Shown: positions 1-63,261 of the stretch, piece after piece
How the letters are laid out: every line of letters starts with the position of its first letter
Numbering within the stretch: position 1 is the stretch's first letter
From: Acidovorax sp. KKS102
GTDB taxonomy: Bacteria; Pseudomonadota; Gammaproteobacteria; Burkholderiales; Burkholderiaceae_C
Assembly: GCF_000302535.1 (NCBI RefSeq)
Contig: NC_018708.1
Span: 5,022,001 to 5,086,000 of the forward strand
Direction of reading: 5' to 3'
DNA: 64,000 bases
The notes under the pieces: generated by a model
Database searches by the model: none
The model's input: only the letters and a program-made list of their open reading frames with translations
Told to the model about the DNA's origin: nothing
Translations under genes and position numbers: made by a program

Positions 1-642
1 CCTGACAGTGGCGTGATCTCGGCGCGCACCGCTACGGTGGGCGCGGTGGTGGGTGCCGGCACAGAGCTGTTCCGCATGGTGCGCAAGGGCCGCCTGGAGT
101 GGCGCGCCGAGGTCACGTCCACCGAGCTGCGGCGCATCCAGCCCGGCGCCAAAGTCAGCGTCACCGCAGCAAGCGGCGCCGTGGCCGAGGGCACCGTGCG
201 CATGGTCGCGCCCACGGTGGACCCGCAGACGCGCAATGCGCTGGTCTACGTGGATCTGCCCGCCAATGCGGACTTCCGAGCCGGGATGTTTGCGCGGGGC
301 GACTTCGCGCTGGGCAGCAGCGACGCGCTCACCGTGCCGCAGGAGGCGCTGGTGGTGCGCGACGGGTTCTCGTACGTGTTTGTGGTGGGCGGCGACCAGC
401 GCGTGCAGATGCGCAAGGTCCAGACCGGCCGCCGCGTGGCCGACCGGGTCGAGGTGCTGTCGGGCCTGGACGCCGGAGCCTCCGTCGCCGTGCGCGGTGC
501 GGGCTTTTTGAACGATGGCGACCTCGTGCGCGTGGCAGCCCCTGCGGCGGCGCCAGCGGCGGGCAAGCAGTCCTCCAGCGGACATTTCATGCAAAAAGTG
601 CCTGTAGCGCTAGTGGATCATGCGCTAGCAGCTATCAATTGA
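1..642 (+). CDS. RND efflux periplasmic adaptor subunit, C-terminal part (5' end outside window)
   Basis: The last 213 codons of a membrane-fusion (HlyD/AcrA-type) adaptor that would bridge the inner-membrane pump to an outer-membrane channel. The frame is open from base 1. The visible protein has the beta-barrel and membrane-proximal part typical of the family, including the segment VDPQTRNALVYVDLP and the stretch LTVPQEALVVRDGFSYVFVV. Only 12 bases separate it from the RND permease, so they form one operon. The last residues and the TGA stop come from a dispersed repeat (583-635), so the natural C-terminus has probably been replaced or extended. Substrate cannot be told from sequence. Confidence 0.9.
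   Translation, partial: PDSGVISARTATVGAVVGAGTELFRMVRKGRLEWRAEVTSTELRRIQPGAKVSVTAASGAVAEGTVRMVAPTVDPQTRNALVYVDLPANADFRAGMFARGDFALGSSDALTVPQEALVVRDGFSYVFVVGGDQRVQMRKVQTGRRVADRVEVLSGLDAGASVAVRGAGFLNDGDLVRVAAPAAAPAAGKQSSSGHFMQKVPVALVDHALAAIN
583..635 (-). repeat. Dispersed Comamonadaceae-type repeat, copy 1 (inside adaptor gene)
   Basis: Read on the minus strand this copy has the family layout: an ATAGCTGCT-like 9-mer, 13 variable bases, CTAGCGCT, then about 23 bases ending in an A-rich tail. It encodes, antisense to the repeat, the adaptor's last residues (QKVPVALVDHALAAIN). The stop codon lies just beyond it. Confidence 0.85.
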
Positions 643-654
643 GGAGCATTCCAG

Positions 655-3600
655 ATGAATGTATCCACCTGGTCCATCAAGAACCCCATACCGGCGCTGA
701 TGCTGTTTGTGCTGCTGACCTTCGGCGGCCTGCTGTCCTTCAACGCGATGAAGGTGCAGAACTTTCCCGACATCGACCTGCCCACGATCTCCGTCACGGT
801 GGCGCTGCCCGGCGCCTCGCCCGCGCAGCTGGAGAACGACGTGGCGCGCAAGATCGAGAACAGCATCGCCACGCTGCAGGGCCTCAAGCACATCTACACC
901 AAGGTGCAGGACGGCGGCGCCACCATCACCGCCGAGTTCCGGCTGGAGAAGCCCACGCAGGAGGCGCTGGACGATGTGCGCTCGGCCGTGGCCCGCGTGC
1001 GCGGCGACCTGCCGGGCGACGTGCGCGACCCCATCGTGACCAAGATGGACCTGGCCGCGCAGCCCGTGCTGGCCTTTACCATCGCGTCGGCCCGCATGGA
1101 CGATGAGGCGCTGTCCTGGTTTGTGGACGACGCCGTGGCCAAGAAGCTGCTCACCGTGCGCGGCGTGGGCGCCGTCAACCGCGTGGGTGGCGTGCAGCGC
1201 GAGGTGCATGTGGCGCTCGACCCGGTCAAGCTGCAGTCCCTGGGCGCCACGGCGGCCGATGTGTCGCGCCAGCTGCGGCTGGTGCAGACTGAGAGCGCCG
1301 GCGGCCGCACCGACCTGGGCGGCAGCGAGCAGCCGGTGCGCACGCTGGCCACGGTGCAGTCGGCGCAGGAGCTGGCGGGCCTGACGCTGGCCCTGTCCGA
1401 TGGCCGCCATGTGCGGCTGGACCAGGTGGCCACAGTGACGGACACCATCGCCGAGCCCCGCGCGCTGGCGCTGCTCAACGGCAAGCCGGTGGTGGGCTTT
1501 GAGGTGGCGCGCAGCAAGGGCGCGAGCGAAGTGGAAGTGGGTGCTGCCGTGCAGGCGGCCCTGCAGGAGATGCGTACGCAGCACCCCGACCTGGAAATCA
1601 CCGAGGCCTTCAACTTCGTGCAGCCCGTGCAGGAGGAATACGACGGCTCCATGCACCTGCTGTACGAAGGTGCCCTGCTGGCCGTGCTGGTGGTGTGGCT
1701 GTTCCTGCGCGACTGGCGCGCGACGTTTGTGTCGGCTGTGGCGCTGCCGCTGTCGGTGATCCCGGCGTTCATCGGCATGTACTGGCTGGGCTTCTCGATC
1801 AACGTGATCACGCTGCTGGCGCTGTCGCTGGTGGTAGGCATCCTGGTAGACGACGCCATCGTGGAGGTCGAGAACATCGTGCGCCACCTGCGCATGGGCA
1901 AGACGCCCTACCAGGCGGCCATGGAGGCGGCCGACGAGATCGGCCTGGCCGTGATCGCCACCACCTTCACGCTGATCGCGGTGTTTTTGCCCACGGCGTT
2001 CATGAGCGGCATTGCGGGCAAGTTCTTCAAGCAGTTTGGCTGGACGGCGTCGCTCGCGGTGTTTGCCAGTCTGGTGGTGGCCCGCCTGCTCACGCCCATG
2101 ATGGCGGCCTACATCCTGAAGCCCATCGTGGGAGACCACAAGGAGCCGCGCTGGATGACGGTGTACCTGCGCTGGGCCGCGTGGTGCATCAAGCACCGGT
2201 GGATGACCTTCATCGCCACAGCGGCGTTCTTCATCGGCTCGCTGGCGCTGATCCCGCTGCTGCCCACGGGCTTCATCCCGCCGGACGACAACTCGCAGAC
2301 CCAGGTGTACCTGGAGCTACCGCCCGGCGCCACGCTGGGGCAGACGCGTGCCGTGGCCGAAGACGCGCGCCAGCGCATCGCCCAGGTGGAGCATGTGCAA
2401 AGCGTGTACACCACCATTGGCGGCGGCTCGGCCGGCACTGACCCCTTCATGGGCGGCGCCAGCACCGAAACGCGCAAGGCCACGCTGACCATCTTGCTGT
2501 CCCCGCGCGGCGACCGGCCGCGCAAGCAGGGCATCGAGAACCAGATCCGCGCCGCGCTGGAGACGCTGCCCGGTGTGCGCAGCAAGGTGGGCCTGGGCGG
2601 ATCGGGCGAGAAGTACGTGCTGGTGCTCACGGGCGACGACCCGCAAGCGCTGACCACGGCCGCCTTGGCGGTCGAGAAGGACCTGCGCACCATCCCCGGC
2701 CTCGGTAGCATCTCGTCCACCGCCAGCCTGGTGCGGTCCGAGATCGCCGTGCGCCCCGACTTCGCCCGCGCCGCCGACCTGGGTGTCACCAGCAGCGCCA
2801 TCGCCGAGACCCTGCGCATCGCCACCGTGGGCGACTACGACGTATCGCTGCCCAAGCTCAACCTGGCCGCGCGCCAGGTGCCCATCGTCGTCAAGCTGCA
2901 GGACGATGCACGCAAGGACCTGTCGCTGCTGGAGCGGCTGCCGGTGCCCGGCGCCAAGGGCCCGGTGATGCTGGGCCAGGTGGCCACGCTGGAGTTCAGC
3001 GGCGGCCCGGCCGTGGTGGACCGCTATGACCGCGCACGCAATGTGAACTTCGAGATCGAACTCTCGGGCCAGCCGCTGGGCGACGTGACCAAGGCGGTGG
3101 AGGCGCTGCCCTCCATACAGAACCTGCCGCCGGGCGTGCGCCAGATCACGATTGGTGACGCCGAAATGATGGGCGAGCTGTTTGCCAGCTTCGGCCTGGC
3201 CATGCTCACTGGCGTGCTGTGCATCTACATCGTGCTGGTGCTGTTGTTCAAGGACTTCCTGCACCCGGTGACCATCCTGGCGGCGCTGCCGCTGTCGCTG
3301 GGCGGTGCGTTTGTGGGGCTGCTGATTGCACAAAAGAGCTTCTCGATGCCCTCGCTCATCGGGCTGATCATGCTCATGGGCATTGCCACCAAAAACTCCA
3401 TCCTGCTGGTGGAATACGCCATCCTGGCGCGGCGCGAACACGGCATGACGCGTTTTGAGGCGCTGATCGATGCCTGCCACAAGCGCGCACGGCCCATCAT
3501 CATGACCACGCTGGCCATGGGCGCGGGCATGCTGCCCATCGCCATCGGCCTGGGGGCTGCGGACGCGAGCTTTCGCTCGCCGATGGCGGTGGCGGTGATT

Positions 3601-5109: not shown

Positions 5110-5112
5110 CGC

Positions 5113-9639: not shown

Positions 9640-9658
9640 TCAAAAACCGAGAATTGCT

Positions 9659-10234
9659 ATGAAAAACATAGCTATTACCGCAATATTCACTAGCGCTTTG
9701 ATGGCTTTTGGACCTCAAACCGCGCTGGCGCAGGTGGCAGAGGCCAGCGCCGCCGCTGCAGCCCCGCTGTCGGGCGCGCGGCTGGTGGGGCAGGGCGTGC
9801 TGCGCTTTCTGGGGTTTGAGATCTACCGCGCGCGGCTGTGGGTGCAGCCCGGCTTTGACGCCGACAACTACGCGGCCCACCCCTTGGCGCTGGAGCTGAC
9901 CTACCACCGCGATTTTTCGGCCGACGCCATCGCCAAGCGCTCCATCGAGGAGATGCGCCGCGTCGGCAGCTTCACGCCCCAGCAGGCCGCGCGCTGGCAG
10001 CAGGCGCTGGCCGCCGCCTTGCCAGATGTAAAGGCGGGCGACCGGCTGCTGGGCCTGTACCAGCCCGGCGCGGGCGCCGTGTTCAAGATGGGCGGGCGTG
10101 TGGTGGGCGAGGTGCCCGACGCCGAGTTCTCGCGCCTGTTCTTCGGCATCTGGCTGTCGCCACAGACCTCCGAGCCCGGACTGCGGCAAGAGCTGATCGC
10201 CGCCACCCGCACGGCGGGCCAAGGGCAGCAATGA
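9659..10234 (+). CDS. Exported chalcone-isomerase-like protein
   Basis: 191 residues. The signal peptide MKNIAITAIFTSALMAFG...TALAQ is followed by the chalcone-isomerase-like fold seen in many proteobacterial periplasmic proteins (GQGVLRFLGFEIYRARLWV, then ELTYHRDFSADAIAKRSIEEMRR). Plant chalcone isomerase catalysis is not implied; relatives probably bind fatty acids. Most of the signal peptide is encoded by a dispersed repeat (9668-9720). Its stop overlaps the ATG of the MFS gene (ATGA), so translation is coupled. Role in the lipid operon: perhaps acyl-chain binding in the periplasm (inference). Confidence 0.8.
   Translation: MKNIAITAIFTSALMAFGPQTALAQVAEASAAAAAPLSGARLVGQGVLRFLGFEIYRARLWVQPGFDADNYAAHPLALELTYHRDFSADAIAKRSIEEMRRVGSFTPQQAARWQQALAAALPDVKAGDRLLGLYQPGAGAVFKMGGRVVGEVPDAEFSRLFFGIWLSPQTSEPGLRQELIAATRTAGQGQQ
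9668..9720 (+). repeat. Dispersed repeat, copy 2 (signal peptide of chalcone-isomerase-like protein)
   Basis: Layout: ATAGCTATT, 13 bases, CTAGCGCT, then 23 bases ending CCTCAAAC. It aligns without gaps to the intergenic copy at 63209-63261. It encodes IAITAIFTSALMAFGPQ, the hydrophobic core of the signal peptide. Confidence 0.85.
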
Positions 10235-20870: not shown

Positions 20871-22301
<1,431 letters not shown>

Positions 22302-22306
22302 AAATG

Positions 22307-22345
22307 ATAGCTGCCCGCGCTTATCGCGTGGGCACTTAAAACCTC
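22307..22345 (+). repeat. Dispersed repeat, copy 3 (truncated, after purB)
   Basis: ATAGCTGCC, 13 bases, TGGGCACT, then directly TAAAACC; about 14 bases of the right part are missing compared with full copies. The GCCCGCG/CGCGTGGGC arms can pair. Confidence 0.7.
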
Positions 22346-22347
22346 TG

Positions 22348-22393
22348 GAGCTGCCAAAGCAAGCACCCACTTGCACTGGCAGCTCTTGTTTTT
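22348..22393 (+). terminator. Rho-independent terminator of purB
   Basis: GAGCTGCCA (22348-22356) pairs with TGGCAGCTC (22377-22385). An inner GCAAG/CTTGC stem sits above a 2-base bulge, and TTGTTTTT follows. A strong intrinsic terminator 46 bases after purB, ending 9 bases before yaeQ. Confidence 0.9.
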
Positions 22394-22966: not shown

Positions 22967-23019
22967 GGTTTTGAGCCAAAGTGCCCACTAGCGCTAGTGC
23001 AACATGCCTCAGTAGCTAT
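22967..23019 (-). repeat. Dispersed repeat, copy 4 (after yaeQ)
   Basis: On the minus strand: ATAGCTACT, 13 bases, CTAGCGCT, then a tail ending CTCAAAACC. Upstream flank TTTGCTATATATTCA parallels TTTGCTATAAATTAG of the copy at 63209. It lies between the yaeQ stop and the convergent zinc-ribbon gene. Confidence 0.85.
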
Positions 23020-23048
23020 TGAATATATAGCAAACGAGTTCTGTGTCG

Positions 23049-25751: not shown

Positions 25752-26105
25752 ATGCGACTTCTTCTGAAATGGCTGCTCAGCGCTGCATCGCTGCTGTTTG
25801 TGGCTTACGTCTACAGCGGTGTGGAGGTGAAAAGCTTCACCTCGGCGCTGATCGCGGCCTTCGTGATCGGCCTGTTCAATGTGGTGCTGCGACCGGTGCT
25901 GGTCGTACTCACCTTACCCGTCACCATCGTTACGGTCGGGCTGTTTCTCTTCGTCATCAACGCACTCATGTTCTGGGCAGCGGCCAGCGTGCTGGACGGC
26001 TTCCACGTCGCCGGTTTTGGGGCTGCGTTGCTGGGCTCGCTGATCTACTCGGTGCTCGGCGTGATCATCGAATCAGCGCTCGGCGGCCTGTTCGCGAAGA
26101 AGTGA
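25752..26105 (+). CDS. Phage-holin-family (PF04020-type, YvlD-like) membrane protein
   Basis: 117 residues with four membrane helices: MRLLLKWLLSAASLLFVA, TSALIAAFVIGLFNVVLRPV, LTLPVTIVTVGLFLFVIN and a C-terminal pair. Motif NVVLRPVLVVLTLPVTIVT is diagnostic of this widespread family, which despite its name is not tied to phage here. Its last 33 bases overlap the 3' end of the convergent M48 protease gene. Confidence 0.88.
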   Translation: MRLLLKWLLSAASLLFVAYVYSGVEVKSFTSALIAAFVIGLFNVVLRPVLVVLTLPVTIVTVGLFLFVINALMFWAAASVLDGFHVAGFGAALLGSLIYSVLGVIIESALGGLFAKK

Positions 26106-27671
26106 CTCCATCGCGCGCAAACGGGTGTCGATGATGGAAGCCTCAATGTGGTCCACCGCAGGTCCACCTCGGCGGGCCATCTCTTGGCCGGCCTTGAACC
26201 GGTCTACCGCAGCAGCATAGTCATACCGCGCGGCTTGCGCTTCGGCCTCTGCACGAATCGCCCTCAACGCCTGGCCTTGCGCTTGCCAGCTTGATGCGAG
26301 CAGTTGCCACACGGTCGCATCCTTGGGGTGGGTGGCCACCCAGGTTTGCAACGCCTGCGTGGCGTCCGCTGCTCGGTTGGCGCGCAACAGGGCTTGAGTA
26401 CGCAGCACCAACTCTGGCCTGCGTGCGTTGTTGCCCTCTGGCATGGACGCAAGGGCTGCAGAGGCATCGCCCGCTGCCAGCTCGATCTCCGCCGCCAACA
26501 GGCGTGACAGGCGGTGAGCGGCGGGGTCCTGCCGCACCAGGTCATCCAGCTGGCGGGCAACCAGACGCGCATTGGCTGCATCACGCAGCTGGCTGCTTGC
26601 CAGCGCCGCCGCATACAGCGCGGCGGCCCGTCGCGGCAGCGGCTGTGACTGAAACCCTGAGCCCTTGGGCTCCGCAATCCATTGACGCAAAGTGTCCACC
26701 CCAGGATTGGACAACACGCGCGCCCGCGCGGCCACCATGGCATGTTCGCTGGAAGTCTGCGTTGGGCCCCCAGGCGCAGACGCTGCTCCCGGAGGGATGC
26801 GCGACTGCATGTCTGCCATGCGCTCTGTGGTCAGCGGATGGCTGCGCAAATAGGGCCACGATCCGTTGTCGTTGAGCCGGTTGGCCTGCTGCAGCTTTTC
26901 AAACATGCTCACAAAGCCCTGGGGCGCGAAGCCTGCCGGGGCCATCAGCCCATAGCCAATACGGTCCGCCTCGCGCTCCATGTCCCGCGAGAAATTGAGC
27001 TGGTTCTGAATGGCCAAGGCTTGACCACCTACGACCAGGGCCTGCGTGGCGCCAGGGTTTTTGCTGGCTGCAAGCGCCCCCAACACCATCGCCCCCAGCA
27101 GTAGCGGCGTCTGCTTGCTCTGCTGCGTGATCAGCCGCGAGATATGGCGCTGAGTCACATGGCTCAGTTCGTGCGCTAACACGGAAGCCAGTTCATCACG
27201 TGTCGCCACCACACCAATCAAACCCAGATGCACCCCTAGGTAGCCGCCGGGCAGGGCAAACGCATTCACCGTGCGGTCTCGACCCAGCAGGATTTCCCAG
27301 GCAAAGCGCTCATCAAGCTCGGCGCTGAGTTCACCACGTGACTTGGCCGCAGACAGGAGAGGCTGCCAGATTCCCTGTACATAGTCGGCCACAACGGGGT
27401 CATCGACGTAGTCGGGGTCCCTGTACAGCTCGCGGATGATGCGGTCGCCCAGACGGCGCTCGGCGCTGGTGGTGAGGTCGCTGGAGTCGCCAAGGGTGGG
27501 GAGAGGAGATTGTGCGACGGCAGGAAGTGCCACACCAACACCAATTGCTATTAATAGAGAAGCGTTCAGTGCAATACCAGAAAGCGTTATAGGCACTTTT
27601 TGCTGTTTTTTTTGAATAACCAAGGAGACCTTAGTTCCTGGTACTTCGGGGGTGTGTTTAGCGTTCCACAT
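26073..27671 (-). CDS. M48 family metalloprotease with TPR tail (BepA-like)
   Basis: 532 residues. Zinc site HELSHVTQRH near residue 168 with the third ligand Glu in MEREADRIGYGLM. The C-terminal half is a run of TPR-like helices (ALASSQLRDAANARLVARQ, LRANRAADATQALQTW). BepA-type proteases act in the periplasm on outer-membrane protein assembly. The N-terminus is unusual: about 30 hydrophilic residues precede the hydrophobic signal, and the segment QQKVPITLSGIALNASLLIA is encoded by a dispersed repeat. A non-ATG internal start (TTG at codon 18) is possible. 33-bp convergent overlap with the holin-family gene. Confidence 0.9.
   Translation of the reverse strand: MWNAKHTPEVPGTKVSLVIQKKQQKVPITLSGIALNASLLIAIGVGVALPAVAQSPLPTLGDSSDLTTSAERRLGDRIIRELYRDPDYVDDPVVADYVQGIWQPLLSAAKSRGELSAELDERFAWEILLGRDRTVNAFALPGGYLGVHLGLIGVVATRDELASVLAHELSHVTQRHISRLITQQSKQTPLLLGAMVLGALAASKNPGATQALVVGGQALAIQNQLNFSRDMEREADRIGYGLMAPAGFAPQGFVSMFEKLQQANRLNDNGSWPYLRSHPLTTERMADMQSRIPPGAASAPGGPTQTSSEHAMVAARARVLSNPGVDTLRQWIAEPKGSGFQSQPLPRRAAALYAAALASSQLRDAANARLVARQLDDLVRQDPAAHRLSRLLAAEIELAAGDASAALASMPEGNNARRPELVLRTQALLRANRAADATQALQTWVATHPKDATVWQLLASSWQAQGQALRAIRAEAEAQAARYDYAAAVDRFKAGQEMARRGGPAVDHIEASIIDTRLRAMESLLREQAAER
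27545..27611 (+). repeat. Dispersed repeat, copy 5 (signal peptide of M48 protease)
   Basis: Flank TTGCTAT plus 7 bases, a divergent 9-mer (GAAGCGTTC), 13 bases, AAAGCGTT, then ATAGGCACTTTTTGC, the same tail as copy 1. Core 27559-27611 keeps the 9+13+8+23 spacing. The protease reads through it antisense, in the same frame that the adaptor uses in copy 1. Confidence 0.7.
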
Positions 27672-27729
27672 GCCCGTATGATGCCCACTCGCTCAAATGT
27701 TTCCCATCGATTCACCCGGTTATCACGCC

Positions 27730-28221
27730 ATGTCAGCACTCACTCACTTCGATGCCCAAGGCCGGGCCCACATGGTTGACGTGGCCGCCAAGGCCACCAC
27801 ACACCGTATTGCCGTCGCCAGTGGACGCATAGAAATGCTGCCCGCCACCTTGGCTGTCATCGAAGCGGGCACCGCGAAGAAAGGCGATGTGCTGGGTATT
27901 GCTCGCATCGCTGGCATCATGGCGGCAAAAAAAACCAGCGACTTGATTCCCCTGTGCCACCCGCTGGCATTGACTCGCGTCGCTATTGAATTCGAGGCTT
28001 CTAGCGCCCAACAATTGGGCGCCGTCGGCATATTTTGCTCAGCAACGGTAGAGACCGTTGGCCAGACCGGTGTAGAGATGGAAGCCCTCACTGCCGTGCA
28101 AGTGGCCCTGCTTACCATCTACGACATGTGCAAGGCCGTGGACCGGGGCATGTCGATCCATGAGGTTCGCGTAATAGAGAAGCATGGGGGGAAATCGGGG
28201 AGTTTTGTGGCGGCGGGGTGA
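27730..28221 (+). CDS. moaC: Cyclic pyranopterin monophosphate synthase accessory/lyase MoaC
   Basis: 163 residues from ATG 27730, second in-frame Met. Acts with MoaA in molybdenum cofactor synthesis, making cyclic pyranopterin monophosphate. Conserved blocks: [63 protein letters not shown] and [12 protein letters not shown], with the catalytic Lys/His region intact. Residues about 84-100 ([15 protein letters not shown]) coincide with a divergent repeat copy and make this loop about four residues longer than in E. coli MoaC. Divergent from the M48 protease gene. Confidence 0.96.
27979..28031 (+). repeat. Possible dispersed repeat, copy 6 (inside moaC)
   Basis: GTCGCTATT, 13 bases, CTAGCGCC: the spacing and most conserved positions of the family, but the tail is divergent. 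In the same reading frame as copies 2 and 9. The weakest member. Confidence 0.45.
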
Positions 28222-43861: not shown

Positions 43862-43885
43862 GGCTGACCAAACGCTATATTTTCA

Positions 43886-43938
43886 ATAGCTGCAGGCGCA
43901 TATGGAATGTGCGCCTGCAGGCCATTTGGCTTCAAAAA
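43886..43938 (+). repeat. Dispersed repeat, copy 7 (between recA and recX)
   Basis: ATAGCTGCA, 13 bases, TGTGCGCC, 23-base tail. The arms CTGCAGGCGCA (43890-43900) and TGCGCCTGCAG (43910-43920) form a perfect 11-bp stem with a 9-base loop. Changes in both arms keep the pairing, although the sequence differs from other copies. Confidence 0.85.
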
Positions 43939-48883: not shown

Positions 48884-49558
48884 ATGCGCATCCTCATTGC
48901 CGAAGACGACCAGGTGCTGGCCGATGGCCTGCTGCGCACGCTGCGTGCCTCGGGCGCCGTGGTGGACCATGTCGCCAGCGGCAGCGAGGCCGACGCGGCG
49001 CTCATGACCAACAACGAGTTCGACCTGCTCATCCTGGACTTGGGCCTGCCCAAGATGCATGGGCTGGAAGTGCTGAAAAAGCTGCGCGGCCGGGGCTCTG
49101 CCCTGCCGGTGCTGATCCTCACCGCCGCCGACAGCGTGGAAGAGCGCGTGAAGGGGCTGGACTTTGGCGCCGACGACTACATGGCCAAGCCCTTCAGCCT
49201 GCAGGAGCTGGAAGCCCGCGTGCGCGCCCTCACGCGCCGGGGCATGGGCGGCACCAGCAGCGCCATCAAGCACGGCCCGCTGGTGTACGACCAGGCCGGC
49301 CGCGTGGCCACCATCGACGGCAAGATGATCGAACTTTCCGCCCGCGAGCTGGGCCTGCTGGAAGTACTGCTGCAGCGCGCCGGCCGCCTGGTGAGCAAGG
49401 AGCAGCTGGTGGAGCGCCTGTGCGAGTGGGGCGAAGAGGTGAGCAACAACGCCATCGAGGTCTACATCCACCGCCTGCGCAAGAAGATCGAGGGCGGGCC
49501 CATCCGCATCGCCACCGTGCGCGGCCTGGGCTACTGCCTTGAGAAGATCCCCAGTTAA
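48884..49558 (+). CDS. OmpR-family response regulator (TctD/QseB-like)
   Basis: 224 residues. Receiver domain 1-115: acidic pocket EDD (8-10), phospho-acceptor Asp in LLILDLGLP, Thr in LILTAADS and Lys in DYMAKPFS. Winged-helix output 125-220 with LSARELGLLEVLLQRAGRL and NNAIEVYIHRLRKKIEG. AGGAGA ribosome site. Pairs with the sensor kinase that follows after an inserted repeat copy. Confidence 0.94.
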   Translation: MRILIAEDDQVLADGLLRTLRASGAVVDHVASGSEADAALMTNNEFDLLILDLGLPKMHGLEVLKKLRGRGSALPVLILTAADSVEERVKGLDFGADDYMAKPFSLQELEARVRALTRRGMGGTSSAIKHGPLVYDQAGRVATIDGKMIELSARELGLLEVLLQRAGRLVSKEQLVERLCEWGEEVSNNAIEVYIHRLRKKIEGGPIRIATVRGLGYCLEKIPS

Positions 49559-49569
49559 CTATCAAAACG

Positions 49570-49622
49570 ATAGCTGCTCGCGCATATGAATCCAGCGCTA
49601 TCGGGTGTTTTGGCTTCTAAAC
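49570..49622 (+). repeat. Dispersed repeat, copy 8 (between response regulator and kinase)
   Basis: ATAGCTGCT, 13 bases, CCAGCGCT, 23-base tail ending TTCTAAAC. It starts 12 bases after the regulator stop and supplies the in-frame TAA just upstream of the kinase's GTG start. Confidence 0.85.
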
Positions 49623-55370: not shown

Positions 55371-58280
55371 ATGACCAAGACCCTGGTAATTGCAGAAAAA
55401 CCCTCGGTGGCGCAAGACATCGTGCGCGCACTGACCCCCGTGGCGGGCAAGTTCGAGAAGCACGAAGACCACTTCGAGAACGACCGCTATGTCGTCACCA
55501 GCGCCGTGGGCCACCTGGTGGAGATCCAGGCCCCCGAGCAGTTTGACGTCAAGCGCGGCAAGTGGAGCTTTGCGCACCTGCCCGTGATCCCGCCGTACTT
55601 TGACCTGAAGCCCGTGGACAAGACCAAGAGCCGCCTGAACGCGGTGGTCAAGCAGGCCAAGCGCAAGGACGTGACCGAACTCATCAACGCCTGTGACGCG
55701 GGCCGTGAGGGGGAACTGATCTTCCGCCTGATCGAGCAGTACGCTGGAGGCAGCAAACCGTTGGGCAAACCCGTCAAACGCCTGTGGCTGCAGTCCATGA
55801 CGCCCCAGGCCATCCGCGACGGCTTTGATGCGCTGCGCAGCGAGCAGCAGATGGCAGGCCTCGCCAGTGCGGCCCGCAGCCGCTCCGAGGCCGACTGGCT
55901 GGTGGGCATCAACGGCACGCGCGCCATGACGGCGTTCAACTCGCGCGACGGTGGCTTCTTCTTGACCACCGTGGGCCGGGTGCAGACGCCCACGCTGTCG
56001 CTGGTGGTGGAGCGCGAGGAAAAGATCCGCAAGTTCATCAGCCGCGACTACTGGGAAATCCACGCCACCTTCGGCGCCCAGGCGGGCGAGTACCCCGCCA
56101 AGTGGTTCGACCCCAAGTGGAAAAAAGGCGAGGACGTGGAAGCCCGCGCCGACCGCGTATGGTCGGCCGCTGAAGCGCAAGCCATTGCCAACGCCGTGCG
56201 CGGCAAACAGGCCACCGTCACCGAAGAGAGCAAGCCCACCACCCAGGCATCGCCCCTGCTGTTTGACCTGACCAGCCTGCAGCGCGAGGCCAACGGCAAG
56301 TTCGGCTTTTCTGCCAAGACCACGCTCGCCCTGGCGCAAAGCCTGTACGAGCGCCACAAGGCCCTGACCTACCCGCGTACCGATTCGCGCGCGCTGCCCG
56401 AAGACTATTTGCCCGTGGCCAAGCAAACTTTTGAAATGCTGGCCGACAGCGGCATGCGCCACCTGGCGCCGCACGCGCTCACCGCGCTGAACAACAACTA
56501 CATCCGCCCATCCAAGCGCATCTTCGACAACAGCAAGGTGAGTGACCACTTTGCGATCATCCCCACCACGCAAGCCCCGTCGGGCTTGAGCGAGGCTGAG
56601 CAAAAGCTGTACGACCTGGTCGTGCGCCGCTTCATGGCCGTGTTCTTCCCGAGTGCCGAATACACCGTCACCACCCGCATCAGCACCGTGGCCCCGCACA
56701 GCTTCAAGACCGAAGGCAAGGTGCTGGTCAAGCCGGGCTGGCTGGCCATCTACGGCAAGGAAGCCGCCGACGAAGTCGAAGGCGGCAAGGACGGCGACAA
56801 GGGCCAGAACTTGGTGCCTGTGAAGCCCGGTGAAATGGTCAACACCCTGCAGGTCGATCCCAAGGGCCTCAAGACCAAGCCGCCCGCCCGCTACTCCGAA
56901 GCCACGCTGCTCGGCGCCATGGAAAGCGCCGGCAAGCAGATCGACGACGACGAGCTGCGCGAAGCCATGCAGGAAAAGGGCCTGGGCACGCCTGCCACGC
57001 GCGCGGCCATCATCGAAGGCTTGCTGACTGAAAAGTACATGCTGCGCGAAGGCCGCGAGATCATCCCCACGGCCAAGGCCTTCCAGCTCATGACGCTGCT
57101 GCGCGGGCTGGAGGTGGAAGAGCTCTGCCGTGCCGAACTCACGGGCGAGTGGGAGTACAAGCTCTCGCAGATGGAGAAGGGCCAACTCAGCCGCGAAGCC
57201 TTCATGCAAGAGATTGCCGCCATGACCGAGCGCATGGTGAAGAAGGCCAAGGAATACGACCGCGACACCATCCCCGGCGACTACGCCACGCTTGAATCCC
57301 CTTGCCCCAACTGCGGTGGCGTGGTGAAGGAAAACTACCGCAGGTATGCCTGCGTGGGCAAGCCGGGCGCAGAAGGTTGTGGCTTCAGCTTTGGCAAGTC
57401 GCCCGCCGGCCGCACGTTTGAAACGGCCGAGGCCGAACAGCTGCTGCGCGACAAGAAGATCGGCCCGCTGGAGGGCTTCCGCTCCAAGGCGGGCTGGCCG
57501 TTCACGTCCGAAATCGTCATCAAGTACGACGACGAGGCGCACAACTACAAGCTCGAATTCGACTTTGGCGATGACAAGAACGCCGAGGAATCCGGCGAGC
57601 TGGTGGAGTTTGAAGACGCATCGCTGGGTGCCTGCCCCATCTGCGGATCGGAAGTGCACGAGCACGGCAGCAACTACGTGTGCAGCAAGGCCGTGCCCAC
57701 GGCCGCCCAGCCCACGCCCAGCTGCACCTTCAAGAGCGGAAAGATCATCCTGCAGCAGCCCGTGGAACGCGAGCAGATGCACAAGCTGCTGGAGACAGGC
57801 AAGACCGACCTGCTCGACAAGTTCGTCAGCATGCGCACGCGCCGCAACTTCAAGGCCCACCTGGCGTGGGACAAGGAGGCGGGCAAGGTCAACTTTGAAT
57901 TTGCGCCCAGCAAGTTCCCACCTCGCCCAGGAGCCGCTGCAAAAACAATAGCAGCCAAGGCAAAAGCCACTAGCGCTACTGCCAAAAAAGCCCCTGCAAA
58001 GAAGGCCGCAACCAAAACCGCTGCCGCCAAAGCCCCGCGCAAGGCCGCCGCAGGCAAGGCCCCCAGCGCCGCCCTGGCCGCAGTGATTGGCAACGAGCCG
58101 GTGGCGCGCCCCGAGGCCGTCAAGAAGATGTGGGAATACATCAAGGCCCACAACCTGCAGGACCCCAAGGACAAGCGCACCATCGTCGCCGACGACAAGC
58201 TGCGCGCCGTGTTCGGCAAGGACAGCGCAGGCATGTTCGAGCTGGCCGGCATTCTGGGCAACCACCTGGGCGGCGAATGA
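55371..58280 (+). CDS. topB: DNA topoisomerase III with C-terminal SWIB domain
   Basis: 969 residues. Type IA core: Toprim start KTLVIAEKPSVAQDI, DAGREGELIFRLI, TTVGRVQTPTLSLVVERE, and the active-site Tyr334 in TYPRTDSRALPEDY. Two C-terminal zinc-ribbon-like repeats (CPNCGGVV near 645, CPICGSEV near 755). A Lys/Ala/Thr linker (about 850-905) resembles histone H1 tails, part of it encoded by a dispersed repeat. Residues about 912-966 (KKMWEYIKAHNLQDPKDKRT, then the ILGNHL end) form a SWIB/MDM2 domain. Relaxes or decatenates DNA. Divergent from the SET gene by 119 bases. Confidence 0.96.
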   Translation: MTKTLVIAEKPSVAQDIVRALTPVAGKFEKHEDHFENDRYVVTSAVGHLVEIQAPEQFDVKRGKWSFAHLPVIPPYFDLKPVDKTKSRLNAVVKQAKRKDVTELINACDAGREGELIFRLIEQYAGGSKPLGKPVKRLWLQSMTPQAIRDGFDALRSEQQMAGLASAARSRSEADWLVGINGTRAMTAFNSRDGGFFLTTVGRVQTPTLSLVVEREEKIRKFISRDYWEIHATFGAQAGEYPAKWFDPKWKKGEDVEARADRVWSAAEAQAIANAVRGKQATVTEESKPTTQASPLLFDLTSLQREANGKFGFSAKTTLALAQSLYERHKALTYPRTDSRALPEDYLPVAKQTFEMLADSGMRHLAPHALTALNNNYIRPSKRIFDNSKVSDHFAIIPTTQAPSGLSEAEQKLYDLVVRRFMAVFFPSAEYTVTTRISTVAPHSFKTEGKVLVKPGWLAIYGKEAADEVEGGKDGDKGQNLVPVKPGEMVNTLQVDPKGLKTKPPARYSEATLLGAMESAGKQIDDDELREAMQEKGLGTPATRAAIIEGLLTEKYMLREGREIIPTAKAFQLMTLLRGLEVEELCRAELTGEWEYKLSQMEKGQLSREAFMQEIAAMTERMVKKAKEYDRDTIPGDYATLESPCPNCGGVVKENYRRYACVGKPGAEGCGFSFGKSPAGRTFETAEAEQLLRDKKIGPLEGFRSKAGWPFTSEIVIKYDDEAHNYKLEFDFGDDKNAEESGELVEFEDASLGACPICGSEVHEHGSNYVCSKAVPTAAQPTPSCTFKSGKIILQQPVEREQMHKLLETGKTDLLDKFVSMRTRRNFKAHLAWDKEAGKVNFEFAPSKFPPRPGAAAKTIAAKAKATSATAKKAPAKKAATKTAAAKAPRKAAAGKAPSAALAAVIGNEPVARPEAVKKMWEYIKAHNLQDPKDKRTIVADDKLRAVFGKDSAGMFELAGILGNHLGGE
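57948..58000 (+). repeat. Dispersed repeat, copy 9 (inside topB linker)
   Basis: ATAGCAGCC, 13 bases, CTAGCGCT, 23-base tail. Encodes IAAKAKATSATAKKAPA in the H1-like linker, in the same frame as copies 2 and 6. Confidence 0.75.
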
Positions 58281-59319: not shown

Positions 59320-60128
59320 TCGCTTTGGAGGTGTGCCAGCGCCTGCTGCGCCTGCACACCCACCTTCAAGGGCCATTGCGCACTGACAGGGGTGCGCGCG
59401 CCTTGCACCAAAGCCTGCAACGGATGGCCCGCCAGCCTGCGCACATCGCGCCCCATGTGCGACTGGTCGTAATAGCCTTCGTCGGCCGCTAGCTCTGCCA
59501 CTGAAACAGCACTGCCTGGCGTGTCAAGCGCATGCCCCAGCGCGCTGTTCATGCGCGCAATCACCTCAAATTGCTTGGGCGCCATGCCCCAGTGCGCCAC
59601 AAAGCGCCGTGCGAATTGCCGCTGGCCCAGGCCCATGCGATGGCCCATCGCAGCCAGCAAGGCCAGCCCCTGCAGCCGTCGCGATTCACAGGGCGACGGC
59701 GGTGCAAAGTTTTGCCGGACAAACTGGCACAACACCTCCAGCCGCGCGCCATCATCCGCCGCGCCCCTCACAGCGCATACGACTTCGGCCCACCTCGGGC
59801 CTGCCAAATCCGCCATCGGGCGCAAAGTGTTGACCTGCCCGAGCGCGGCGGCAAACAGCGCCGCCGCGGCCCCGGGTTGCAGCACCAGCACCACTGCTTG
59901 CACAGGCCCGCCGTGCTCGTACACGGTGGGCGTGGTGCTGGCGCTGATCCATGCCGAAGGTGGCACCAGCGCGCCCCGGCAATGCACCTGCCCCGCCAAC
60001 CGCACCACCAGCATGCTCGACACCATCGCCGGGAAATGCGACTGCGCCAGCGTCGCAGGGGTATCAACCACCACCGCAGCCATCAGCCACGGTTGCAGAT
60101 CAGGGGGAACGGGCACGAAACGCTGCAT
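59295..60128 (-). CDS. AraC family transcriptional regulator
   Basis: 277 residues from ATG 60128; the frame extends to 60197. N-terminal region resembles the DUF6597/cupin-like sensor (MQRFVPVPPDLQPWLMAAVV). C-terminal double helix-turn-helix: first HTH LGQRQFARRFVAHWGMAPKQF, second VAELAADEGYYDQSHMGRDV and RRLAGHPLQALV. Divergent from the tyrosine phosphatase gene (131 bases), which may be its target. Confidence 0.85.
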   Translation of the reverse strand: MQRFVPVPPDLQPWLMAAVVVDTPATLAQSHFPAMVSSMLVVRLAGQVHCRGALVPPSAWISASTTPTVYEHGGPVQAVVLVLQPGAAAALFAAALGQVNTLRPMADLAGPRWAEVVCAVRGAADDGARLEVLCQFVRQNFAPPSPCESRRLQGLALLAAMGHRMGLGQRQFARRFVAHWGMAPKQFEVIARMNSALGHALDTPGSAVSVAELAADEGYYDQSHMGRDVRRLAGHPLQALVQGARTPVSAQWPLKVGVQAQQALAHLQSDQESARRR

Positions 60129-60259
60129 GGCCAGATTCTGCACACTGCGACAGCCAGTGGCCGAACCAGCCACCCGTGCGACATGTGCCTGACGCACCGC
60201 CGGTCTATCCTTGGTGGCTCAGCACCCCACCCACCCATCGCATCTCCGTACCACGCACC

Positions 60260-61015
60260 ATGCAGCAAGCGCACACTCCCACCCGATCCCTCCCTCTCGC
60301 AGGCGCCACCAACTTCCGTGATCTCGGCGGCTATGTGGGCCATGGTGGGCAGGCCGTGAAATGGCGCCGCATCTTCCGCTCCGACCACCTGGCAGGCCTG
60401 ACGCCCGAAGACCAGGCCCTGCTGGCCGACCTGGGCGTCGCCCGCGCGGTGGACTTTCGCGGCCAGGCCGAAAGCGCCGCCTATGCCTACACGCTGCCCG
60501 GTGTGCAGTACCACCCGCTGCACATCGAACCCACGGTGGTGCAGCGTGCGCTGGAGCTACAGCGCACCGGCCGCCAGCTCACCGCCCAAGACGCCGTGGG
60601 CCTGATGCAGGACACCTACCGGGGTTTTGTGCACGACAACGCCCCGCGTTTTGCCGAGCTGTTCCGCCTGCTGCTGGCCAGCGATGCGCCCACGGTGTTT
60701 CACTGCACCGCAGGCAAGGACCGCACCGGCTTTGCCGCCGCCCTCATCCTGCTGACGCTGGGCGTGCCGCGCGATGTGGTGATGCACGACTACCTGCTGA
60801 CCAACGCGCTGTACCAGCGCCCACCCGGCATGGGCAGCCACGCGCCGGAAGAAGTGCTGCGCGTGCTGTGGCGTGTGCAGGAAGAGTTTCTGGACGCCGC
60901 CCTGCACATGGTGGACAACGACTTTGGCGGGCTGCAGGCGTATCTGGTGGACGTGCTGGGTGTTGACGCTGCCGCGCAGAAGGAACTGGCAGGGCGGTAT
61001 CTGCAGACGGCCTAA
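60260..61015 (+). CDS. Tyrosine-protein phosphatase family (CX5R)
   Basis: 251 residues from ATG 60260. N-terminal NFRDLGGY and RRIFRSDHLAGLTPED, and the P-loop HCTAGKDRTGFAAALILLTLG with catalytic Cys and Arg. This is the Y_phosphatase3 (PTP3/MptpB-like) branch, which dephosphorylates phosphotyrosine or phosphoinositides. No signal peptide. Sits between AraC and MFS genes. Confidence 0.9.
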   Translation: MQQAHTPTRSLPLAGATNFRDLGGYVGHGGQAVKWRRIFRSDHLAGLTPEDQALLADLGVARAVDFRGQAESAAYAYTLPGVQYHPLHIEPTVVQRALELQRTGRQLTAQDAVGLMQDTYRGFVHDNAPRFAELFRLLLASDAPTVFHCTAGKDRTGFAAALILLTLGVPRDVVMHDYLLTNALYQRPPGMGSHAPEEVLRVLWRVQEEFLDAALHMVDNDFGGLQAYLVDVLGVDAAAQKELAGRYLQTA

Positions 61016-61051
61016 ATCGCTGATGGTGCCCGCCGGCGGCGCCTGCCCGGC

Positions 61052-62389
61052 TTACCCCGCGCTGTGCTGCGGCCGCACTGTCACAGAGCGCTGTTGGCGC
61101 ACGTGCCAGAACAGCCAGCCCACGATCGACAGGTTCAGCAGGTTCCACGCCATGCCGTTCAAAAATGCCGCGCGGTAGCTGCCCGTCAGGTCAAAGATCC
61201 AGCCCGACATCCAGCCCCCCAGCGCCATGCCGATCAGCGTGGCCATGATCACCGCGCCCACCCGCGCGCCCGCCTCTTGCGGCGCGAAATACTCGCGGAT
61301 GATGATGGCGTAGGCGGGCACGATGCCGCCTTGGAACAGCCCGAACATGGCCGAGATGACATACAGCGGCACCAGCCCGTCAAATGGCAAAAACAGCGCC
61401 AGCCCCACGCCCTGCAACGCCGAGCCCAGCAGCAGCGTGCGCACGCCGCCAATGCGGTCGCAGATCACGCCCGACACCAGGCGGCTGACGATGCCGCACG
61501 CCAGCATCAGCGACAGCATCTCGGCCCCGCGCGCCGCACCAAAACCCAGGTCGGTGCAATACGCCACGATGTGCACCTGCGGCATCGCCATGGCCACGCA
61601 GCAGGCCACACCCGCCACACACAGCAGCAGCTGCGCATGCAATGGACGCAGGCCAAACGGGCGGCTGCGGTCGAGCGACAGCGCTGCAGGCGCCACACCG
61701 GCTGACGCACCCTGCGTCGATGCAGCGGGTGCAGCCGGTGCAGGGACTGCATCCATCTGCACCATGGGTGCGCGCTGGCGCATGCGCAGTGCCAGCAGCA
61801 GCATGCCCACGCCACACACCAGGCCCAGCAGCACATAGGTGTGGCGCCAGCCGATCAGCTCGATGCCGTGCTGCACGATGGGCGGCCACAGCGCGCCCGC
61901 AATGTAGTTGCCGCTGGCGCAGATCGCCACCGCAATGCCGCGCCGCTTGTTCCACCACAGCGCGGTGTCGGCCATCAGCGGCGCAAATGTGGCCGAGCTG
62001 CCAATCAGCCCCATCAGTCCGTGCGCCAGCCCAAACCCCCAGATGCTGCCCGACAGCCCAGCCCACACAAACCCGCCACACACGGCCACCGCGCCCACGC
62101 ACAGCACCGGCATCAGCCCATGCCGGTCGGCCATGCGCCCCGTCCAGATGCCGCCCAGCCCCAGGCACACCATCATCAGCGTGTAGGGCAGCGACGCATC
62201 GGCACGGCCCACGCCAAACTCAGCCTGCACGGCGGGCAGCACCACCGACACCACATACATACTGCTGTTGCCCAGCACCACCAGGCCCAGCGTGGTCAGC
62301 AGGCGCCACGCGGCCTGGCGGGAGTCGATGAGGGAAGCAGGTGCCGCTGCGCTAGCGGCGGCGGTTGTGGCTGGGGAGGGGTGGGGCAT
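61052..62389 (-). CDS. MFS transporter (monocarboxylate/OFA-like)
   Basis: 445 residues with 12 TM helices. Helix 2-3 loop GRMADRHGLMPVL carries the MFS Asp-Arg motif; WWNKRRGIAVAICASGNYIAGALWPP is in the N-terminal half (motif WWNKRRG). An Ala/Pro-rich cytoplasmic loop separates the halves. Likely exchanges carboxylic acids; substrate unknown. N-terminal 20 residues are low-complexity. Confidence 0.88.
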   Translation of the reverse strand: MPHPSPATTAAASAAAPASLIDSRQAAWRLLTTLGLVVLGNSSMYVVSVVLPAVQAEFGVGRADASLPYTLMMVCLGLGGIWTGRMADRHGLMPVLCVGAVAVCGGFVWAGLSGSIWGFGLAHGLMGLIGSSATFAPLMADTALWWNKRRGIAVAICASGNYIAGALWPPIVQHGIELIGWRHTYVLLGLVCGVGMLLLALRMRQRAPMVQMDAVPAPAAPAASTQGASAGVAPAALSLDRSRPFGLRPLHAQLLLCVAGVACCVAMAMPQVHIVAYCTDLGFGAARGAEMLSLMLACGIVSRLVSGVICDRIGGVRTLLLGSALQGVGLALFLPFDGLVPLYVISAMFGLFQGGIVPAYAIIIREYFAPQEAGARVGAVIMATLIGMALGGWMSGWIFDLTGSYRAAFLNGMAWNLLNLSIVGWLFWHVRQQRSVTVRPQHSAG

Positions 62390-62521
62390 TGAAGCAATTT
62401 ACCCGAACCAGTGTCCGGCCTGGGCACGACGTACGCTTCTGCAGACAGGCACCGTTCTGCGCCGACCCCACGGGTTGCCGGGCACCCGGCCGGGCCTGGA
62501 ACAAGCAGAGGACGCCGGACC

Positions 62522-63139
62522 TCACACCCGCACCGACTTCCCCGTCGCATAAAACTGCCCACCCGCCACGTAGTGCAACGTGCGCAAGTCATCCGGCGCG
62601 GTGTCGAACTCCCAGTGCCCGTTACGGAACACACGGTCGTCGGCCCAGGCGGCCACCACTTCGCTGATGAAGAGGTCGTAGGCCTGCTGGTTGTGGGGCT
62701 CGGGGACCACGCGGCACAGCAGCCAGGCGGCGCAGCCTTGCACCAGCGGGGGTGTGGTCTGCGCAGGTTGACCGGGGGCTTCAAAAAACGCCACGCCATG
62801 GCGCTGCAGCTTGTCGGGCGTGGTCTTGGCGGTGTCGGTGCCCAGGGCAACGGTCAGCGCTGCCAGGGGCACGGTGGGCAGCTGCAGTGCAAAGAAGCCG
62901 CTGGCCTCCACCAGCTCGCGCGTGCGCGTCGCCTTGTCGAGCACCACGGTGACCTTGGGCGGCGCAAAGTCCAGTGCGCAGGCCCACGATGCGGCCATGA
63001 CGTTGTGCTGGCCTGCATGGGTGGCCGACACCAGCACGACGGGGCCGTGGTTGAGCAGGCGGTAGGCCTTGTCGAGGGGCACCGGGGTGAAGTGGGGCGG
63101 GGAGGCAGTGGGCAGCATGGGGTGTGATGGCTTGTTCAA
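62522..63139 (-). CDS. Flavin reductase-like (FMN-binding) domain protein
   Basis: 205 residues; ATG 63118 (MLPTASPP) is an alternative start. Split-barrel flavin reductase features: GPVVLVSATHAGQHNVMAAS, PPKVTVVLDKATRTRELVEA, GFFALQLP and the C-terminal HYVAGGQFYATGKSV. Binds FMN and may supply reduced flavin or reduce a small substrate. No monooxygenase partner nearby. Confidence 0.88.
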   Translation of the reverse strand: MNKPSHPMLPTASPPHFTPVPLDKAYRLLNHGPVVLVSATHAGQHNVMAASWACALDFAPPKVTVVLDKATRTRELVEASGFFALQLPTVPLAALTVALGTDTAKTTPDKLQRHGVAFFEAPGQPAQTTPPLVQGCAAWLLCRVVPEPHNQQAYDLFISEVVAAWADDRVFRNGHWEFDTAPDDLRTLHYVAGGQFYATGKSVRV

Positions 63140-63208
63140 AGGGCGATACGAGGGGTATGAGATGGAGCGCGGAAGCTATTGGCGCTGAGGATGTTTGCTA
63201 TAAATTAG

Positions 63209-63261
63209 ATAGCTATTCAGGCATGTTGTACTAGCGCTATGGCGCATTTTTGCCTCAAAAC
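63209..63261 (+). repeat. Dispersed repeat, copy 10 (intergenic)
   Basis: ATAGCTATT, 13 bases, CTAGCGCT, 23-base tail ending CCTCAAAAC; flank TTTGCTATAAATTAG upstream. Aligns without gaps with copy 2. Confidence 0.88.

Follow-up and report, generated by a model that had tools for sequence, protein, structure and literature searches.

A ~63-bp chromosome-wide motif with clade-specific spellings in Acidovorax is a candidate DNA uptake signal

Results

Ten copies of one motif in the window

The window analyzed here is a 64,000-nucleotide stretch of Acidovorax sp. KKS102 (contig NC_018708.1, positions 5,022,001 to 5,086,000), the source genome, designated G000; other G numbers designate the genomes compared with it. 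A sequence-only reading had proposed one fixed-spacing repeat family at ten places in this stretch, and all ten carry the motif described below, with corrections to coordinates and strand. Eight of the ten pass the threshold of E < 1e-3 set for a 63-bp profile in the window, 2 of these 8 on the minus strand. The copies are as follows:

587..649, minus strand: motif copy; E 4.2e-15; orthologous site occupied in 10/10 relatives fetched
9654..9717, plus strand: motif copy; E 3.1e-8; occupied in 10/10 relatives fetched
22293..22355, plus strand: partial motif copy at a gene end; E 2.6e-4; matched over 22297-22325 only
22971..23033, minus strand: motif copy that fills the gap between two convergent genes; E 3.1e-14; occupied in 10/10 relatives fetched
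27545..27607, plus strand: diverged motif copy (first placed at 27559); below threshold in the window; called in G001, G020, and G006
27980..28042, plus strand: diverged motif copy (first placed at 27979); below threshold in the window; called in G022, G014, and G010
43872..43934, plus strand: motif copy, intergenic; E 5.9e-11; called in 9/10 relatives
49556..49618, plus strand: motif copy at a gene 3' end; E 1.3e-12; occupied in 10/10 relatives fetched
57934..57996, plus strand: motif copy in the part of a type I topoisomerase (Pfam; ORF 55371-58280) that is rich in Lys and Ala; E 1.9e-6
63195..63257, plus strand: motif copy in a divergent intergenic gap; E 4.3e-13; occupied in 6/6 alignable relatives

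Coding use of the repeat, which had been claimed from the letters alone, is real for five of these copies. The copy at 587..649, read antisense, forms the last 17 residues (MQKVPVALVDHALAAIN) and the stop codon of the upstream gene, and it also places a GGAG-like stretch, probably a ribosome-binding site, ahead of the ACR_tran gene that follows (start 655). The copy at 9654..9717, read in sense, probably contributes both the start codon and the signal peptide (MKNIAITAIFTSALMAFGPQTALA) of a protein resembling chalcone isomerase (ORF 9659-10234, Pfam PF16036), for which a simple gene caller set the start at 9701 instead. The copy at 27545..27607 falls, antisense, within the N-terminal part of an M48 peptidase (PF01435; ORF 26073-27671, minus strand), which is hydrophobic and probably a signal region, and that at 27980..28042 lies inside MoaC (ORF 27697-28221, named by homology). 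For each of these last two, a copy was called at the orthologous site in three relatives, so we took them as diverged copies; at the MoaC site, the interval in the other relatives either matches in length or falls short by up to ~19 bp. Six relatives carry the copy at 22293..22355 on the opposite strand, the one relative of ten with no called copy at 43872..43934 has an interval of similar length, and the topoisomerase site is called in 5/10 relatives, with the other 5 of the same length.

Abundance and build of the motif

A strict core pattern gave 63 + 63 exact matches (126) genome-wide in G000 and 0 + 0 in the reversed control. Against Markov and reversed copies of the window sequence, the best control match of the final profile had an E value of 0.48, and that of the first-round profile 0.078; the family stands clear of both kinds of control. 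The profile found 72 copies in 644 kb of G000, sampled as evenly spaced rather than random stretches, or about 1 copy per 9 kb. Three opposite-strand duplicate matches were taken out. The sequence-only reading was right on one fixed-spacing family, dispersed over the chromosome and present in relatives.

The motif is ~63 bp long, with two A/T tracts flanking a G/C core, and its G+C content is 46%, versus 65% for the window. It holds ~63 bits of information over background, spread over ~63 columns, a figure that the selection of copies by score makes somewhat too high. Pairwise distances among the G000 copies average 0.405 with a minimum of 0.12; no near-identical pairs were found among them, leaving no copy-paste signature, and recent copy-paste subfamilies were rejected. 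The columns are largely independent, with linkage slightly above independence: pairwise distances spread by 0.073, versus 0.060 in column-shuffled copies (shuffle standard deviation, 0.0018), so the columns keep a degree of linkage or common history.

Spacing of the copies in G000 is more even than chance (CV 0.607; null, 0.974); G017 also shows evenness, and G010 and G014 show it weakly (fractions 0.07 and 0.10). More core copies lie on the leading strand than on the lagging one (82/127, P = 0.0013, a lean noticed before testing), which an uptake signal does not predict.

Placement relative to genes

The motif prefers gene ends and intergenic gaps, convergent gaps included. By gene calls from our own simple codon-model script, which underlie both counts given here, the 72 copies in 644 kb divide into 40 intergenic, 23 overlapping a gene end, and 9 internal, and a recount with better-placed ends (n = 71) gave 44, 18, and 9. 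Half of the copies had been placed inside genes at the outset; this holds for the window (5/10 coding) and fails genome-wide (9/72 internal). Among copies lying mostly in genes in three genomes, one phase accounts for 8/10 sense copies, and two phases, with 10 and 7 copies, account for most of the 19 antisense ones, so that the initial claim of one frame per orientation survives for the sense strand and not for the antisense.

Orthologous sites are mostly occupied

Starting from 34 copies of G000, we found alignable orthologous sites to be occupied in 28/28 cases in the nearest relative, G017, in 18/19 in G014, and in 6/7 in G010; G002, of the same genus, had no copy at its single comparable site. 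Across the wider set, 54/98 sites were unalignable to any second genome and stand outside the occupancy counts, leaving 44 multi-genome sites. These contained 30 unoccupied orthologous cells, of which 18 were of the same length as the occupied site, 3 longer, and 9 shorter, all 9 from 3 sites. The sequence-only reading had taken the repeat for an inserted element, for which copy-less orthologues should differ in length; with most orthologous sites already occupied and most copy-less ones unchanged in length, that part of it largely gave way. Coding copies were also compared with solved homologues, for four of the nine internal copies and MoaC, picked for likely solved homologues, using the two best alignments each: 5/5 proteins aligned without a whole-element gap, with small gaps of 0 to 10 residues and small loop expansions. 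Mobile insertion is disfavored by the occupancy, length, and protein-gap tests alike.

Clade-specific dialects

The motif has three clade-specific consensus spellings, or dialects, each common to the dispersed copies of its clade. A permutation test on 22 sites (123 of 217 copies) reached the observed value in 0/500 permutations, and leave-one-site-out assignment to the three clades was correct for 168/217 copies, where guessing the largest clade gives 123; since copies were partly called with a profile from their own genome, this comparison is biased toward each genome's dialect, and G022 was entered as dialect B though its copy at site 587 resembles A. Counts of the strict core patterns are free of this bias. 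The type A core, counted in only these two genomes of the genus, occurs 126 times in G000 and 2 times in G001; the type B core occurs 34 times in G000, 149 in G001, 275 in G010, and 397 in G020, with 13, 22, and 14 in G009, G012, and G013. Dialect B is palindromic, and dialect A breaks the palindrome.

Likely foreign DNA, ComEC, and RAYT genes

The second contig of G017 has 0 copies in 180 kb, versus ~20 expected, and integrase-rich stretches of G000 have 1 copy in 100 kb, versus ~11 expected; the five stretches were picked from integrase matches after gaps in the strict core had been noticed there. Both were probably imported, and the motif would then be nearly absent from foreign DNA.

Motif-rich genomes, those with at least 20 matches to the first-round profile among the matches listed (E values of that profile being rough), number 22/100 in the family. 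ComEC was found in 97/100 family genomes (Fisher P = 1 against motif-rich status); with ComEC so widespread and motif-rich genomes so few, the motif does not track it across the family, and the comparison carries little information. Within the genus, ComEC is open in G000 and in 8/9 other genomes asked; the one with no match, G004, also has the fewest motif matches among those listed (6; core B, 1). G002 keeps ComEC and has 14 weak matches among those listed, 0 copies in 60 kb, and a core B count of 0.

The Y1_Tnp (RAYT) domain was found in 21/22 motif-rich genomes versus 52/78 others (P = 0.006, uncorrected for relatedness). RAYT is thus correlated with the motif, but it is not present wherever the repeat is abundant, because G123 is motif-rich and has no Y1_Tnp match; this exception led us to set aside dependence on RAYT. 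Five RAYT loci were inspected: one, in G047, adjoins a strong copy (E 9e-12), two have weak copies at ~350 to 380 bp, and two have none within 3 kb.

Discussion

We consider the motif a likely candidate DNA uptake signal for natural transformation, one that would favor DNA of the cell's own kind, and put the probability of this at roughly one in two. Orthologous retention, change in place, dialects, and near-absence from likely foreign DNA are traits of uptake sequences, and we therefore read the motif as a likely self-recognition signal. According to a 2014 study (PMC4212676), Acidovorax temperans, Acidovorax facilis, and Verminephrobacter eiseniae are naturally transformable, uptake by V. 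eiseniae is selective, and none of the tested Acidovorax strains was transformed by DNA of another Acidovorax species; its passages on uptake sequences name none for Verminephrobacter or Acidovorax. Failure of transformation across species could reflect sequence divergence instead of a choice made at uptake. Acidovorax delafieldii, not transformable in the same study, carries an exact dialect A core, which counts against an uptake function. Within the open-licence literature, we found no paper on DNA uptake sequences in Comamonadaceae, and for Acidovorax only PMC4212676 concerns the group; searches there with motif DNA strings returned unrelated papers only, the nearest repeat being BRE (PMC3110155).

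Descriptions of uptake signals cover two families, Pasteurellaceae and Neisseriaceae (PMC7811141). Of the traits shared by their signals, the Acidovorax motif has dispersed overrepresentation, in-place substitution, clade-wide dialects, and rarity in likely imported DNA, and it lacks the short signal of ~9 to 12 bp, extending instead over ~63 columns; because it is far longer, we describe it as working like an uptake signal and do not file it as a member of the class. The Pasteurellaceae USS likewise consists of dispersed intergenic and coding copies that arose in place rather than by insertion, with a strong core, A/T-rich flanks, and two clade types, Hin and Apl (Redfield et al., PMC1626085, who used the same gap test). 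Unlike our motif, with its G/C core between two A/T tracts, the USS has a core of 9 bp; 65% of USS copies in Haemophilus influenzae are coding, versus 9/72 motif copies internal to genes, and uptake has been demonstrated for the USS and is predicted for the Acidovorax motif. For the Neisseriaceae DUS, dialects are reported to be stable within a species and to follow phylogeny (PMC3630211). The DUS is nevertheless short and has thousands of copies, and our motif is long and has several hundred. BRE, a small repeat of Comamonadaceae and Bordetella that is mostly intergenic and sometimes coding (Hot et al. 2011, PMC3110155), differs in length and base composition as described: full-length Bordetella copies are 75 to 91 bp, 69.0% G+C, often tandem, and at most 29 per genome, whereas the motif is ~63 bp, 46% G+C, mostly single, and present in hundreds of copies.

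Two further kinds of repeat invite comparison. REP elements with their RAYT number in the hundreds, lean to a palindrome, and sit at gene ends, with a species-specific consensus, and the motif resembles them in each of these respects. It differs in having a motif-rich genome with no RAYT match, RAYT genes that are not regularly flanked by it, and evolution in place. Rickettsia palindromic elements are insertions that add residues; like them, the motif is used in coding frames, but no whole-element gap was seen in any of the five proteins compared.

Several observations count against an uptake function: the motif is far longer than the known signals of 9 to 11 bp, and sparser; it does not track ComEC across the family; G002 keeps ComEC yet has no copy in 60 kb; RAYT genes are associated with motif-rich genomes; three sites have shorter unoccupied orthologues, and residual column linkage remains; and spacing evenness is weak in G010 and G014. 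Part of this would suit a repeat of the REP type that a single-copy RAYT transposase spreads and maintains and whose REP consensus is species specific. The enrichment of Y1_Tnp, the several hundred copies with their gene-end bias, the palindromic dialect B, and the strong copy beside the G047 RAYT gene all fit; nonetheless, the motif-rich G123 with no Y1_Tnp match, the four RAYT loci with weak copies or none nearby, the lack of near-identical copies, the few length differences at unoccupied sites, and the near-absence from DNA that is probably foreign, into which a mobile repeat should insert as well, make it quite unlikely. An ordinary MITE-like element, inserted long ago and now decaying, would account for the three sites with shorter orthologues (9 cells), the small loop expansions at coding copies, and the residual linkage, and mobility was considered for BRE by its authors (PMC3110155). 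Yet 18/30 unoccupied cells are of the same length, the 9/30 shorter ones come from 3 of 44 multi-genome sites, coding copies align to homologues with no whole-element gaps, no copies are near identical, and dialects change in concert at fixed sites; we judge such an element very improbable.

Direct selection on chromosomal binding sites, one every few kilobases and co-evolving with a nucleoid or chromosome-organizing protein, is in our view unlikely. It would fit the even spacing in G000 and G017, the near-absence from the second contig and islands, retention at orthologous places, the mild leading-strand lean, and the A/T tracts on both sides of the G/C core, but ~63 bits over background is far above what theory requires at such a frequency, coordinated re-spelling of many sites is hard to explain without a drive, and G002 and G004 of the same genus live nearly without the motif. 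A transcription terminator or other RNA-level hairpin is very improbable as well: the motif's preference for gene ends and convergent gaps and the palindrome of dialect B are set against copies inside genes and a palindrome broken in dialect A, and an alignment of 49 copies gave no consensus RNA structure (energy 0), the window had no Rfam match at gathering thresholds, and no preference for sense or antisense was seen at nearby 3' ends (40 versus 32). On the lack of conserved structure and of an Rfam match, an RNA element was disfavored.

If the motif is an uptake signal, a DNA receptor of the type IV pilus or competence machinery would bind it, and fragments with a better match would be imported and recombined more often. 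Such a bias would, by point changes, draw toward the motif those sequences that tolerate it, in intergenic gaps, at gene ends, and in signal peptides and protein loops, and a shift in receptor preference in one lineage would drag its copies to a new dialect. It falls slightly short of an even bet, in our estimation, that this is a third, independently evolved uptake signal system, in Comamonadaceae, whose ~60-bp motif, several times longer than known signals, has a dialect for each group of species, forms a barrier against gene flow from one Acidovorax species to another, and is the origin of signal peptides, gene tails, and protein loops in conserved genes.

Were the motif the signal, the selective, species-limited transformation of Verminephrobacter and Acidovorax would become directly testable, and DNA receptor work would gain a long natural recognition site. 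It would also be a clear case of a genome-wide motif re-spelled in concert at fixed sites, protein-coding ones included. Even if the motif has another function, the coordinated re-spelling of so many fixed sites calls for explanation.

Copy number and distribution of the motif

The window (G000:C1:5022001-5086000) lies on the single 5,196,935-bp contig of the KKS102 genome (G000). Throughout that genome the core ATAGCT-N17-TAGCGCT is matched exactly 63 times on each strand, against none for its reversed control. Iterating a profile gave a 63-bp motif, approximately TTGCTATnAAATTnATAGCTGCTAGCGCATGTTnCACTAGCGCTnnCGGCCnnTTTnGC, with 72 copies in 644 kb of G000 (a contiguous 264 kb and 19 stretches of 20 kb at even intervals), or about 11 per 100 kb and, by extrapolation from this sample, about 580 per genome. 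The best match in control sequences was at E 0.48 with the final profile and 0.078 with the first-round profile; a second profile, made from relatives, had best control matches of E 0.086 to 0.13. All ten places listed in the sequence-only reading are family members, although those at 27559 and 27979 are discernible only through comparison with relatives. The motif carries about 63 bits over background, distributed along its length and somewhat inflated because copies were picked by score; A/T-only tracts near columns 10 to 12 and 53 to 55 flank a G/C core, and G+C is 46% in the copies versus 65% in the window.

At E 0.01, all 23 same-genus relatives sampled had at least one match; 20 had at least 133 each, one more had 114, and the motif-poor members G002 and G004 had 14 and 6. 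Matches at E 1e-3 or better were present in 33 of 100 family genomes (G000 counted), and 22 of the 100 had 20 or more; further variants occur in other genera of the family. No match was found in 16 genomes from 16 other families of the order. In an order sample of 200 genomes at E 1e-4, five matched: four from this family (G000 counted) and one, with a single marginal match, from outside it. One exact dialect-A spelling turned up only in Acidovorax delafieldii DSM 64, at three places, in a collection of named genomes from which records very close to G000 are possibly absent.

Copies are fixed in place and change in concert

The motif had been read as an inserted element, so that orthologous loci without a copy should be shorter. 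We compared syntenic stretches from ten relatives, with longer ones for G017, G010, and G014. Of the 34 G000 copies in the 264 kb, 28 were alignable to G017 and all 28 were occupied there; occupancy of alignable sites was 18/19 in G014 and 6/7 in G010. Across the 11 genomes, 44 of 98 sites were alignable in two or more, giving 163 occupied and 30 unoccupied cells (one site in one genome). Eighteen unoccupied cells were of equal length, three were longer, and only nine, from three sites, were shorter, which argues against insertion; the copies are fixed and do not jump. We also set five coding copies (Fmt, TruB, a short-chain dehydrogenase, NDH-2, and MoaC) against solved homologues, using two alignments for each. 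None showed a whole-element gap, and gaps over the roughly 20 residues that the motif encodes were of 0 to 10 residues; small loop expansions are therefore common at coding copies, and some may have accompanied the rise of the motif. Separately, the G010 region orthologous to 22971-23033 (L046/L047) holds a MITE-like insert of about 250 bp with long inverted repeats adjoining a motif copy, and G017, the closest relative, has about 1.1 kb of additional sequence in the region orthologous to 22293.

Per-genome consensus sequences form three clade-specific dialects:

Dialects of the motif and the genomes that carry them
A: G000, G017; ..GCATATTnnACTAGCGCT..
B: G010, G014, G006, G022, G001, G020; ..GCTTGATnnATAAGCGCTAGAGGCC..
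C: G009, G012, G013; ..GCTTGACTATCGCGCGGT..

Orthologous sites, including the signal-peptide site at 9654 and the topoisomerase I site at 57934, mostly carry each genome's own dialect; an exception is the G022 copy at 587, which resembles A. Between copies at different sites (22 sites, 123 copies), distance was lower within than between clades by 0.049, a value reached in 0 of 500 permutations of genome labels within sites (mean -0.0007, s.d. 0.0032, maximum 0.0119). Profiles built from other sites placed 168 of the 217 copies in their own clade, compared with 123 for a constant guess of the largest clade. Strict core counts over whole genomes, which need no profile, agree: core A occurs 126 times in G000 and 2 in G001, and core B 34 times in G000, 29 in G017, 149 in G001, 195 in G014, 275 in G010, 397 in G020, 13, 22, and 14 in the dialect-C genomes G009, G012, and G013, and 0 and 1 in the motif-poor G002 and G004 (controls, 0 to 1 per strand). 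The motif thus changes in concert across dispersed copies. Core B is also low (13 to 46) in motif-bearing G007, G009, G012, G013, G015, G019, and G023, and G007, G015, G019, and G023 may hold further dialects.

Pairwise distances among G000 copies (mean 0.405, minimum 0.12) rule out a family of recent copies. Column-shuffled copies had an equal mean and a minimum near 0.19; the spread was 0.073 in real versus 0.060 in shuffled copies (shuffle s.d. 0.0018). Independence of the columns is therefore large but incomplete.

Genomic placement and coding use

Half of the ten window copies had been placed inside genes, a share that does not hold for the genome sample: 9 of 72 copies are internal, 40 intergenic, and 23 across a gene end by our own gene caller, according to which 86% of the sequence is coding. 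A second count of 71 copies gave 9, 44, and 18. The coding copies in the window show ways in which the motif is tolerated in genes:

Coding use of motif copies in the window
587-649: 17-residue protein tail and stop and, for the following gene, a likely ribosome-binding sequence
9654, sense: likely signal peptide and start codon
27545, antisense: signal-like region
27980: MoaC loop
57934: Lys/Ala-rich topoisomerase stretch

The proposal of one frame per orientation survives for sense copies (8/10 in one phase), a preference that fits the TAG triplets within the motif, and fails for antisense copies, which use two frames (10 and 7 of 19). A subset of copies (L028:9337-9399, L028:13318-13380, and window 587-649) has CTCCT at the left end. 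In antisense this reads AGGAG and directly precedes a possible start codon, a layout in which the motif may serve for ribosome binding.

No sense preference was seen relative to nearby gene ends (40 versus 32 at 3' ends). Spacing in G000 was more even than random (CV 0.607, null 0.974, fraction 0.001), also against a null choosing intergenic gaps (fraction 0.002) and in the sister G017 (0.004), and was weak in G010 and G014 (0.07 and 0.10). With the terminus set at the GC-skew switch (about 2.46-2.70 Mb of G000), strict core copies mildly favour the leading strand (82/127, p = 0.0013), a lean spotted by eye before the test; the 72 profile copies show no significant bias (43 versus 29). The motif is absent from 180 kb of the 190-kb second contig of G017, probably a second replicon, where about 20 copies were expected. 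Integrase-rich stretches of G000 (100 kb), selected after strict-core gaps had been seen there, hold 1 copy versus about 11 expected. Four trios of tyrosine recombinases with matching scores and lengths (425, 540, and 357 residues) lie at G000:C1:1283750-1286212, 1298418-1300880, 1302977-1305439, and 2255553-2258015; they resemble recombinase-in-trio elements, and all but the last fall within an island poor in the motif.

Candidate explanations

The nearest printed repeat, as judged from its description, is BRE, for which PMC3110155 already notes copies within coding sequence. One doubt about a role in DNA uptake, the reading favoured below, is the association with a RAYT transposase: a RAYT gene occurs in 21 of 22 motif-rich genomes versus 52 of 78 others (p = 0.006, uncorrected for relatedness), but motif-rich G123 has no RAYT match and the gene is not regularly flanked by motif copies. 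On contig G052:C1 the Y1 transposase domain is matched twenty times; several of these matches have identical scores, and some are split at one point. A chromosome-organising protein binding the motif would also account for the spacing and the chromosome-only location.

By our comparison, the motif has traits known from uptake sequences: origin in place, fixed-site dialects, A/T segments beside the core, and avoidance of likely foreign DNA. Redfield et al. (PMC1626085) applied the same gap test and showed USS not to be insertions, with two subclades having different USS types and a matching uptake preference. A further doubt about the uptake reading is the length of the motif, which far exceeds that of the known signals. 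An open ComEC gene is present in G000 and in eight of nine other genus genomes checked; G004 lacks a ComEC match and is poorest in the motif, and G002 keeps ComEC yet has 0 copies in 60 kb. Presence of ComEC is too common across the family (97 of 100 genomes) to discriminate. In motif-rich G042 (G042:C1:1836740-1837544), ComEC matches fall in three adjoining pieces, seemingly in different frames, which seems to be a broken gene or a sequencing error. According to Davidson et al. (PMC4212676), A. temperans, A. facilis, and V. eiseniae are naturally transformable, uptake by V. eiseniae is selective, and none of the Acidovorax strains tested was transformed by other Acidovorax DNA; the paper's passages on uptake sequences treat the DUS of other families and name none for the authors' own bacteria. 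DNA uptake is therefore the best-fitting putative role of the motif.
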